Of a stretch of DNA of 40,540 nucleotides, positions 28,803 through 37,442 are shown in pieces. The DNA is taken from IMG/VR virus record IMGVR_UViG_3300005511_000896, positions 1 to 40,540 of that record. One strand, 5' to 3'. The position numbers and the translations under genes were made by a program. Within the stretch, counting starts at the first letter, position 1. Each line of letters opens with the position of its first letter. Origin of the DNA: a virus. Under the pieces are notes generated by a model, which had not been told where the DNA came from, made no database searches, and saw only the letters and a list, made by a program, of their open reading frames with translations.

Positions 28803-29630
28803 TTGCAAACACCTGTCCCCACCCCAGCCAGTGCACACGCATGCACTCGCATCACCTTCGAGGTCGACCCTCGCAACCTTGAGGGCTACACCGACGAATA
28901 CGTCGCCCAGCTCTGGCACATCAGCCAGGCCAACCCGGCCCCTTTCGGCGACCGCACCGCCTGCGAGTTCGCCGAACACGTCGGCCGCGAAATCATCCGC
29001 CGGTTTGTCACCGCGCAGCGCCCAGCGCTGTGGGTGCACCAGGGCCGCCACCTCGACCTGGCCACCCGCCTCGCCGGGCAAGACCATGGATCACCTGCCC
29101 AGGCGCCCGCACGCACCGACACCATCCCGCCCGCACCCGGGGCATTCTGGCCAGCGCAGGGCGGCACCTACGCCGGCCTGATCGCCGGCCGCGACGGCAA
29201 GCCTGGCTACCACCTCATCGTCGCGCCGGCCGATCAGGGGGAATTCACGGGCGTGACATGGGGCAGCCGCGGCAAAGATATCCCTGGCGCGGACAGCTAC
29301 CACGACGGCCAGGCCAACACCGCGGCGATGGCGGCTGCCGGCAACGAGCTGGCCCAGCGCGTCGTGGCGCTGACCATCAACGGCCATTCGGATTGGCACC
29401 TGCCCAGCCAGGGGGAAGCGCACCTGCAGGCCGCGAACCTGAAGGACGAGTTCAACCAGAACGATTTCTATTGGACCAGCACGCGGTACTCGGCTTACGG
29501 CGCCTGGGGCCAGTACTTCGGCGACGGCCTCCAGCTCATCCGCTTCAAGGACGCCGGAGGTCGGGCCCGAGCTGTCCGCAGATTGCCCCTTCAATCCTTT
29601 GATGCTTCGGAAGAAGCCATCGAGTCATGA
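28803..29630 (+). CDS. DGR variable protein 1 (DUF1566 / C-type-lectin-like)
   Basis: A 275-aa target protein of the DGR. It starts with TTG, supported by GGAGG five bases upstream. Residues 1-100 form a separate domain (GYTDEYVAQLWHISQANPAP, GREIIRRFVTAQRPALWVHQ) absent from variable protein 2. I recall similar stand-alone early phage proteins. Residues about 110-261 are a DUF1566-type lectin-like fold with YHLIVAPADQGEF, LTINGHSDWHLPSQ and NQNDFYWTST. The variable segment is residues 227-261, followed by a 15-residue tail. No signal peptide or membrane segment is seen. It overlaps the downstream membrane-protein gene by ATGA. Ligand and location are unknown. Confidence 0.88.
   Translation: MQTPVPTPASAHACTRITFEVDPRNLEGYTDEYVAQLWHISQANPAPFGDRTACEFAEHVGREIIRRFVTAQRPALWVHQGRHLDLATRLAGQDHGSPAQAPARTDTIPPAPGAFWPAQGGTYAGLIAGRDGKPGYHLIVAPADQGEFTGVTWGSRGKDIPGADSYHDGQANTAAMAAAGNELAQRVVALTINGHSDWHLPSQGEAHLQAANLKDEFNQNDFYWTSTRYSAYGAWGQYFGDGLQLIRFKDAGGRARAVRRLPLQSFDASEEAIES
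29481..29584 (+). repeat. DGR variable repeat VR1
   Basis: 104 bp aligned without gaps to the template repeat at 36242-36345. It differs at 19 positions, all of which are A in the template. The 70 non-adenine positions are unchanged. Changes concentrate in the template's AAC codons, which here read TAC, GGC, GGC, TAC, GGC, GAC, CTC, CTC, CGC and TTC. Two further changes are CAG to CGG and GAA to GGA. A short hairpin GATTG-CCCCTT-CAATC (29581-29596) follows the repeat end. Confidence 0.97.
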
Positions 29631-35176: not shown

Positions 35177-35683
35177 ATGGAAGCAGCAGAAGTCAGTATT
35201 ACCGTCTCGGCCGCAGTGGCCAAGATCGGGGATTTCCTCCCCCAGCACGGCGGCATTTATGCCGGCCTCATGGCTGGACGGGACGGCAAGCCGGACTATC
35301 ACCTCATCGTCGCACCCGCAGACCAGGGGGAGCTCACGGGCGTCACCTGGGGCGACTATGGCAAGGAGGTCCCCGAAGCTGTCAGCTACCACGACGGCCA
35401 GGCCAACACCGCGGCGATGGCGGCCGCCGGCAACGAGCTGGCCCAGCGCATCGTGGCATTGACCATCAACGGCCATTCGGACTGGCACCTGCCCAGCCAG
35501 GCGGAAGCACACCTGCAGGCCGCGAACCTGAAAGACGAGTTCAACCAGGACGACTTCTATTGGACCAGCACGCAGTACTCGGCTGGCGGCGCCTGGGGCC
35601 AGTACTTCTACTACGGCAACCAGGGCCTCGACCACAAGGACGCCGAAGGTCGGGCCCGAGCTGTCCGCAGATTGATTCTTTGA
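35177..35683 (+). CDS. DGR variable protein 2 (DUF1566 / C-type-lectin-like)
   Basis: A 168-aa second target of the DGR, with only a short N-terminus (MEAAEVSITVSAAVAKIGDF) before the same lectin-like domain as variable protein 1. YHLIVAPADQGELTGVTWG, LTINGHSDWHLPSQ and NLKDEFNQDDFYWTST are nearly identical to it, also at DNA level, so the genes arose by duplication. The variable segment is residues 132-166 and the protein ends three residues later (LIL region). The start at 35177 is preceded by AGGAG. It lies directly before avd and rt. No export signal is seen. Confidence 0.9.
   Translation: MEAAEVSITVSAAVAKIGDFLPQHGGIYAGLMAGRDGKPDYHLIVAPADQGELTGVTWGDYGKEVPEAVSYHDGQANTAAMAAAGNELAQRIVALTINGHSDWHLPSQAEAHLQAANLKDEFNQDDFYWTSTQYSAGGAWGQYFYYGNQGLDHKDAEGRARAVRRLIL
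35570..35673 (+). repeat. DGR variable repeat VR2
   Basis: 104 bp aligned without gaps to the template at 36242-36345. It differs at 14 positions, all A in the template. One of the ten AAC codons is still AAC. The others read GGC, GGC, GGC, TAC, TAC, TAC, GGC, GAC and CAC, and ATC became CTC. The last 35 bp are identical to the template. An inverted repeat GATTGA / TCAATC (35670-35675 and 35688-35693) spans the repeat end, in the same place as the hairpin after VR1. Confidence 0.97.
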
Positions 35684-35703: not shown

Positions 35704-36069
35704 ATGGCCATCCATTCAGACCTGCCGATCCACAAGACGGGCACTGACCTGCTCGGCCTTGTCGCCCACATTCATGCGCAGTTGCCTCGCGGCTTCAAGC
35801 GCACGATCGGCGACAAGATCGTAGAGCACTGCTCGGAAATGCTGGACCTTATGGCGCTCGCGAACGCCACCCGCAAAGCCGAACGCGTCAAGCACATCCG
35901 CGCGCTGCTGGTTCACCAGCGGGCCGCACTGGTGTGGCTGCGCATCGGCTTCAACCTGCGCAAGATCTCGACCGAAGCCTGGTCGAATGCAGTGCGGCTA
36001 TGCGACAGCGTCGGAAAACAGGCGAATGGATGGCTCAATCGGACACAAGAAAAGGCGCCTGCAGCATGA
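35704..36069 (+). CDS. avd: DGR accessory variability determinant (Avd-like)
   Basis: A 121-aa helical protein of the Avd / four-helix-bundle (23S rRNA intervening-sequence-like) family. Four helices are visible: TDLLGLVAHIHAQLPRGFKR, GDKIVEHCSEMLDLMALANA, ERVKHIRALLVHQRAALVWL and AWSNAVRLCDSVGKQANGWL. The size matches Bordetella phage Avd. In that system the protein forms a positively charged pentamer that binds RT and the template RNA. It lies between variable protein 2 and rt and overlaps rt by ATGA, standard DGR order. Confidence 0.9.
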   Translation: MAIHSDLPIHKTGTDLLGLVAHIHAQLPRGFKRTIGDKIVEHCSEMLDLMALANATRKAERVKHIRALLVHQRAALVWLRIGFNLRKISTEAWSNAVRLCDSVGKQANGWLNRTQEKAPAA

Positions 36070-37442
36070 CAGTCAAGGCTCTCATGCCCGTGCGCACATT
36101 GAATCTGGTCGCGCCGCTGCCCCACAAGGGCACCGCCAAGCACACCACGGAGACCGCTGCAGGATTGCAGGCCAGGTCCGGTGCAGTTACCCAGCTGATC
36201 GGCCCAGGCCTTCGGCAGGGCGACGTAGATAGCGCGAACCGACGCAGTACTCGGCTAACAACGCCTGGAACCAGAACTTCAACAACGGCAACCAGAACAT
36301 CAACAACAAGGACGCCGAAGGTCGGGCCCGAGCTGTCCGCAGATTCATCTCCCTACGAGTTCCAGGACCTGGTGCAGGCCTGGCTCGATTGCCGCGCGAA
36401 CAAGCGCAACACTGCCAGTGCCCTGGCATTTGAAGAGCGGCTGGAAGCGAACCTCTGCGCGCTGCACGACGAGCTGTGCGGTGGAGAGTATCGCCCCGGC
36501 CGCTCTATTTGTTTTGTGATCACCAGGCCCAAGCCGCGGGAGGTGTGGGCTGCGGAGTTCCGCGACCGCATCGTGCACCACCTGCTGTACAACCGGATCT
36601 GCCAGCGCTTCTACGCCAGCTTTATCGCGAACAGCTGTGCCTGCATTCCAGGCCGCGGCACCCTCTACGCGGCCGAGCGCCTTGAGCGTGACGTGCGCGC
36701 CGTTTCTCAGAACTGGAGCCGGCCAGCCTTCTACCTGAAGTGCGACCTGGCCAACTTCTTCGTTTCCATCGACAAGCCCATATTGCTTGCCCAGCTGGCA
36801 CATCGGATCTCCGAACCCTGGTGGCTCAGGCTGGCCGAAACCATCCTTTTTCACGATCCCAGGCAGAACCATGAGCTCAGGGGCAATGCAGCCTTGCTGG
36901 CCAGAGTGCCGCCGCACAAGAGTCTGTTCAATGCGCCGCCCGACACCGGCTTGCCGATCGGCAACCTCTCCAGCCAATTCTTTGCCAACGTGCACCTCGA
37001 CGCGCTCGACCAGTTCTGCAAACACCAGGTAGGAGCCAGGCGCTACGGGCGCTATGTCGACGACTTCTACCTGCTGCACGAATCGCCCCAGTGGCTGCAC
37101 CATGCGCTCCACCAGATCGACGCCTGGCTGCCGGCGACGATCGGCGCCAGGCTCAACCCCGCCAAGACGATTCTGCAGCCCGTAGCGCGCGGCATTGACT
37201 TCGTGGGCCATGTGATCAAGCCCTGGCGTAGGACCACGCGCAAACGCACCTTGGCCACGGCCACCAAGCGCCTGCAGGCCGTGGCGGCCGAAGACGTGTT
37301 CGCTACTGGCAACAGCTACCTTGGCCTGGTGCGCCAGGCAAGCCATAGCCATCACGACCAGGCTCAACTGGTCAATGTGCTGCGAAAACGCGGCCACAGC
37401 TACACACCGGACCTCGACAAGATTTTTAGGAGAGCTTCATGA
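36066..37442 (+). CDS. DGR reverse transcriptase with template repeat inside its frame
   Basis: A 458-aa product if started at the ATG at 36066, which overlaps the avd stop as ATGA. The RT domain begins near residue 97 (SPYEFQDLVQAWLDC). Key motifs are EFRDRIVHHLLYN, KCDLANFFVSID (catalytic Asp 227), LPIGNLSSQFFANVHLD (the IGN-SQ motif typical of DGR RTs, about 297-313) and RYGRYVDDFYLLHES (catalytic YVDD at 330-333). The C-terminus has thumb-like GIDFVGHVIKPWRR. There is no in-frame ATG after residue 7. Residues 59-94 are template sequence read in another frame (Thr-rich). The true start could instead be a GTG at 36372, which would clip the domain start. It copies template RNA with errors at adenines. 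Confidence 0.95.
   Translation: MTVKALMPVRTLNLVAPLPHKGTAKHTTETAAGLQARSGAVTQLIGPGLRQGDVDSANRRSTRLTTPGTRTSTTATRTSTTRTPKVGPELSADSSPYEFQDLVQAWLDCRANKRNTASALAFEERLEANLCALHDELCGGEYRPGRSICFVITRPKPREVWAAEFRDRIVHHLLYNRICQRFYASFIANSCACIPGRGTLYAAERLERDVRAVSQNWSRPAFYLKCDLANFFVSIDKPILLAQLAHRISEPWWLRLAETILFHDPRQNHELRGNAALLARVPPHKSLFNAPPDTGLPIGNLSSQFFANVHLDALDQFCKHQVGARRYGRYVDDFYLLHESPQWLHHALHQIDAWLPATIGARLNPAKTILQPVARGIDFVGHVIKPWRRTTRKRTLATATKRLQAVAAEDVFATGNSYLGLVRQASHSHHDQAQLVNVLRKRGHSYTPDLDKIFRRAS
36242..36345 (+). repeat. DGR template repeat (TR)
   Basis: 104-bp donor sequence of the retroelement, with 34 adenines. In the frame of the variable proteins it has ten AAC codons, whose first two bases can mutate to any NNC codon, giving 15 amino acids and never a stop. 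It matches VR1 and VR2 at every non-adenine position. The match starts sharply at ACGCAGTAC and ends at GCAGATT. It lies about 170 bp after avd and is contained in the rt reading frame. It must be transcribed into the template RNA used for mutagenic homing. Confidence 0.97.

Follow-up and report, generated by a model that had tools for sequence, protein, structure and literature searches.

The window, a phage DNA stretch of 40,540 nucleotides, contains a DGR that, judging from sequence comparison, probably has a permuted template RNA: the structured RNA RT-15 lies 5' of the template repeat (TR), inside a reverse transcriptase (RT) reading frame that is probably translated. One stretch of sequence appears to serve both as enzyme code and as part of the template and of a folded RNA. 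New are the position of the RT-15 RNA within the first codons of the RT frame, the maintenance of this frame among relatives and a helix between RT-15 and TR with covariation. With this, RT-15, an orphan RNA family, gains a concrete candidate function, DGR template RNAs gain a second layout, and a hypermutation template can code for part of its own enzyme.

The cassette belongs to a complete phage DGR, consisting of a target gene with VR1, avd, TR, RT and a second target with VR2. Target gene 1 (35177..35683, + strand; Lcl_C/C-lectin-type, Pfam Lcl_C E 4e-10, phrog_4245) carries VR1 at its 3' end (35570..35676, +). VR1 differs from TR (36242..36348, +) at 15 positions, 14 of which are a TR A; the fifteenth mismatch is C to G at 36346, at the TR 3' end. 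The gene avd is found at 35704..36069 (+; PHROG Avd E 6e-19, Pfam bAvd E 2e-8, the latter under the curated cut-off). The RT domain (36351..37442, +; RVT_1, phrog_1423) begins 3 nt past TR and has as its best solved match the BPP-1 RT chain 8ub7_A (E 8e-35), the alignment starting at residue 99. VR2 (29481..29587, +) has 22 mismatches to TR, 20 at A, and is located in a second target ORF (28803-29630, with TTG as its listed start; phrog_4245). Lcl_C, a C-lectin fold, is present in both targets, in the second with an E-value (4e-8) just under the curated cut-off. The element was assigned to the DGRs by its DGR-type RT, the adenine mismatches between TR and VR (14/15 and 20/22), the VR in the target 3' end and Avd. 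VR2 and its target precede the cassette by about 6.7 kb, and the divergence of VR2 from TR is unlike that of VR1. In one relative (L056), a single A is the sole difference between TR and VR, which suggests that transfer took place very recently or almost without mutation.

The stop codon TGA of avd overlaps the ATG at 36066 as ATGA. From this ATG, the RT frame (36066..37442, +) runs without a stop through the whole TR to the stop at 37442; the product would have 458 residues, with Met at M1 and M7 only. The ORF, its translation and the TR/VR alignment confirm what the sequence-only reading had described, namely an RT frame open through TR and free of ATG past the first residues. Residues 1-95 constitute an N-terminal extension, in which TR, when read in the RT frame, gives Thr/Arg-rich residues (about 60-94). 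Between 36070 and 36350, the remaining two frames contain 4 and 1 stops, and after mononucleotide shuffling of this stretch a frame was open in 6.8% of cases. Openness in a single genome is therefore weak evidence, and the strength comes from the relatives. Openness by itself is cheap in GC-rich DNA and sequence conservation of RT-15 by itself restricts stops; both count against the interpretation given here. The brt frame of BPP-1 (L161 1760-2458) is likewise free of stops over the 699 nt that precede its ATG, across spacer, TR and avd, hence openness is not proof of translation.

For comparison, 160 relatives were fetched; frame openness was scored in 156 loci, whereas phase and covariation counts refer to 108 loci. 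Signed positions are counted from the RT domain start. Between the avd stop and the RT domain, the RT frame is open in 101 of 156 loci and the other two frames are open in 0 and 8. The TR-to-RT phase is identical in 108/108 loci, which span 11 lengths. Two designs were found among the relatives and, given the constant phase, RT would include no less than the 3' portion of TR in both. In the first, the frame is continuous from the avd junction across RT-15 and TR. In the second, stops or indels interrupt the upstream frame, and all loci but one contain an in-frame ATG within TR, frequently as ATGATG at -75/-72. The sequence-only reading had named, as evidence that would speak against it, homologous elements with stops or frameshifts in the upstream frame and an RT starting after TR. 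Upstream frames lost in this manner do occur (about 35 of 108 loci), and 34 of these loci carry a TR-internal ATG in the RT frame, for the most part between -66 and -84; in the exception, L105, ATGs lie at -141 and -21. Only in L008 and L082 does RT start after TR, because another gene intervenes, and even there RT-15 and TR form an open ORF.

As a non-circular grouping, loci were split by the presence of an in-frame ATG from TR onward, between -114 and +30. The 31 loci without such an ATG span 14 lengths, and every one of them is open and in phase; among the 77 loci with one, 22 are out of phase and 29 are closed. On the RT tree, length changes are multiples of 3 in 16/16 cases in ATG-less lineages versus 26/40 in ATG-bearing lineages (Fisher's exact test, p 0.005). 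Measured from the RT-15 hairpin loop, RT lies a whole number of codons away in 73 of 79 open loci, and each of the six others carries a TR-internal ATG. The same distance falls into the three phases as 13/4/12 in the 29 closed loci. Comparison across relatives thus shows, at the level of sequence, that the frame through TR is maintained, and this conservation supports the earlier proposal that TR is translated as an extension of RT. L042 and L114 carry paired, mutually cancelling frameshifts near an AATCTG motif, which argues for a start at or before about 36090.

The RT-15 structured RNA (RF03018) was detected at 36053..36244 (+) as a full-length match with 183.3 bits (E 6e-45; gathering cut-off 82). 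The first ~59 codons of the RT frame are accordingly also RT-15 RNA. The sequence-only reading, which had raised the alternative of a leader before a non-ATG start, had missed this structured RNA, its helix with TR and the earlier description of TR/RT overlap in DiGReF. In the relatives, the rates at the three codon positions of the leader are 0.24, 0.26 and 0.29, with a pN/pS of 0.82, while the RT codons after the leader have a third-position excess (0.51) and a pN/pS of 0.45. That all three codon positions of the leader change at almost the same rate indicates that it is conserved as RNA; its conservation as protein was rejected on the same values. RT-n motifs were reportedly defined by Weinberg in 2017. 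The match to Rfam model RF03018 lies upstream of RT; the model itself stops at the TR start and lacks the helix with the TR 3' end.

Comparative analysis shows, besides the RT-15 fold, a long-range helix between RT-15 and TR. Its 5' strand, UUGAAUCUG (36099..36107, +), is located inside RT-15 and its 3' strand, CAGAUUCAU (36340..36348, +), at the IMH*-like 3' end of TR; both strands were assigned from covariation and the MFE fold. Over ten helices (RT-15 plus the RT-15/TR helix) in 108 relatives, 91.4% of cells are paired, and 605 both-side changes were counted versus 171 in shuffled data. The RT-15/TR helix alone is paired in 88% compared to 23-46% for slid partners, and the RT tree contains 19 independent compensatory double changes in it, compared to 0-1 for slid partners. 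Pair 36101-36346 occurs in all four Watson-Crick types (GC 54, UA 33, CG 9 and AU 6). The identity of TR and VR declines within the helix, and at the next three positions beyond CAGATT, pairing with RT-15 is 94% for TR vs 55% for VR, 84% vs 44% and 63% vs 12%. At one helix position, VR is better paired with RT-15 than TR. The fold of the single RT-15+TR sequence is not unusually stable (z -0.6), and its MFE structure includes the RT-15/TR helix. A search for RNA duplexes of TR 3' ends with upstream versus downstream sequence in 14 DGRs gave none above shuffles; that such a simple duplex search by itself does not distinguish the RT-15/TR helix from background counts against the interpretation.

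Concerning the start codon, the RT would begin at the avd-coupled ATG 36066, or at the latest at 36084/36090. Both in-frame ATGs (36066 and 36084) are located in the stem of the first RT-15 hairpin, which could be an obstacle to initiation. Alternatively, RT might start after TR at a non-ATG codon, either GTG 36372, as considered in the sequence-only reading, or another one, and RNA conservation together with GC content would account for the open frame. The leader pN/pS of only 0.82 with its weak 3-base periodicity, the chance openness of ~7% of shuffles and the frequent occurrence of a GTG at +21 in relatives agree with such a downstream start, which we nevertheless consider improbable, since frame-breaking indels are restricted to lineages with a downstream in-frame ATG. 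GTG 36372 is in particular an unlikely start: it encodes V103, which the predicted structure places midway along the first RT helix (H99-110), and five relatives have no ATG, GTG or TTG from TR to +75.

The BPP-1 DGR (AY029185) has the same order of avd, TR and RT on one strand, adenine-specific TR/VR mismatches, a homologous RT (30% identity) and Avd. In BPP-1, however, TR abuts avd and is followed on its 3' side by a 144-nt structured spacer (RF03022 Phage_DGR) and then the RT ATG, whereas the phage studied here has the structured RNA 5' of TR, no spacer and an RT frame starting upstream of TR. The BPP-1 spacer docks RT-Avd and primes cDNA at the TR 3' junction (PMC12875486). In BalMu-1, the structured RNA RT-14 is located 3' of TR as well, unlike RT-15. 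Modelled on these two elements, the cassette could be a conventional BPP-1-like DGR, whose 3' spacer RNA would be contained in the RT coding sequence, while RT-15 would serve another purpose, e.g. translational control of RT. This is very unlikely, as the gap between the CAGATT motif and RT is short and variable among relatives (5-35 nt), covariation links RT-15 to the TR 3' end, and no excess synonymous constraint was detected in the RT 5' codons, of which the first 45 are as diverse at synonymous sites as the remainder. On the latter ground, a hidden 3' spacer within the RT coding region was rejected. No Rfam match was obtained 3' of TR, the RT homology begins 3 nt past TR, and a structured spacer RNA between TR and RT, as in BPP-1, is absent. 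Since nothing comparable to the spacer was found 3' of TR, RT-15 most likely performs the job of the spacer from the 5' side.

In the AlphaFold2 model, computed with 44 relatives, pLDDT is <50 over residues 1-93 (about 28) and >70 from about residue 96, hence the tail of ~95 residues is predicted to be disordered. It is basic and rich in Arg and Thr. This composition and the maintenance of the frame across many lengths would be expected if the extension were a functional part of the protein, e.g. one that binds Avd or the RT's own template RNA, and if the frame were kept for this reason. We regard this as rather unlikely, because residue-level constraint is weak, pLDDT is low, the RT of L008 has no extension and loci starting inside TR lack most of it. 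The TR-encoded extension is probably tolerated rather than functional, being predicted as disordered and missing in one relative. Most simply, the frame would be kept for the transit of ribosomes, which leave avd and reach the coupled downstream RT gene, and not for the peptide. In L008 and L082, a gene of 254 codons is inserted between TR and RT; RT starts from its own ATGA without the extension, and RT-15+TR are a 103-codon open ORF, which ends in the ATGA of the insert. The inserted 254-aa ORF (L008 3183-3947, also in L082) has ATGA overlaps on both sides and, by eye, may be of the PAPS-reductase type.

In the mechanism we propose, RT-15 pairs with the TR 3' end and would hold both template ends together; this pairing likely serves to position the 3' terminus of the template where cDNA synthesis begins. 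Ribosomes would start at the avd-coupled ATG and read RT-15 and TR, producing an RT with a disordered tail. Competition between translation and template use is plausible. A more far-reaching model draws on retrons, in which the order is msr-msd-RT, with the structured RNA 5' of the template and RT 3' (PMC8867640). By this analogy, the priming/docking RNA of RT-15 group DGRs would have moved 5' of the template, RT-15 would be an internal primer like msr, and the RNA would switch between message and template; we give this model an even chance. Retrons prime through the 2'-OH of an msr guanosine 5' of the template; here the likeness to them is limited to the 5' position of the structured RNA and the pairing; unlike in retrons, RT, Avd, TR/VR and A-mutagenesis are all of the DGR kind.

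A TR overlapping the 5' end of the RT ORF was already described as structural group 3 of DiGReF (PMC3521204, 2012), to which the present element corresponds. The DiGReF classes were derived from annotated ORFs and the layout was deemed irrelevant to the mechanism, whereas here the frame and the RT-15/TR helix are conserved. A literature search on RT-15 function or TR inside RT returned DiGReF only; neither frame selection nor the RT-15/TR helix turned up as reported earlier in this search, which covered neither the original RT-n motif paper nor the Rfam text. Public records in which TR-containing RT ORFs are annotated are Magia, Cruim01 and the distant VP58.5 and ACA1. In the latter two, Vibrio phage VP58.5 and Pseudoalteromonas phage ACA1, the RT ORF likewise extends from the avd ATGA overlap across TR, but a gap of 135 nt follows 3' of TR. 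An Rfam scan of the ACA1 DGR gave no match. Before the RT domain, VP58.5 (L175 1737-3014) has no other start codon and ACA1 (L170 2737-4002) has TTG only.

In the RT-15 group, RT starts are annotated inconsistently, which matters for RT expression and for compact DGR tools. In the related phages L162, L163, L164 and L174, the annotated starts are scattered (-192, -75, +84 and +18 from the RT domain start, respectively), and the start at +84 cuts into the conserved RT domain.
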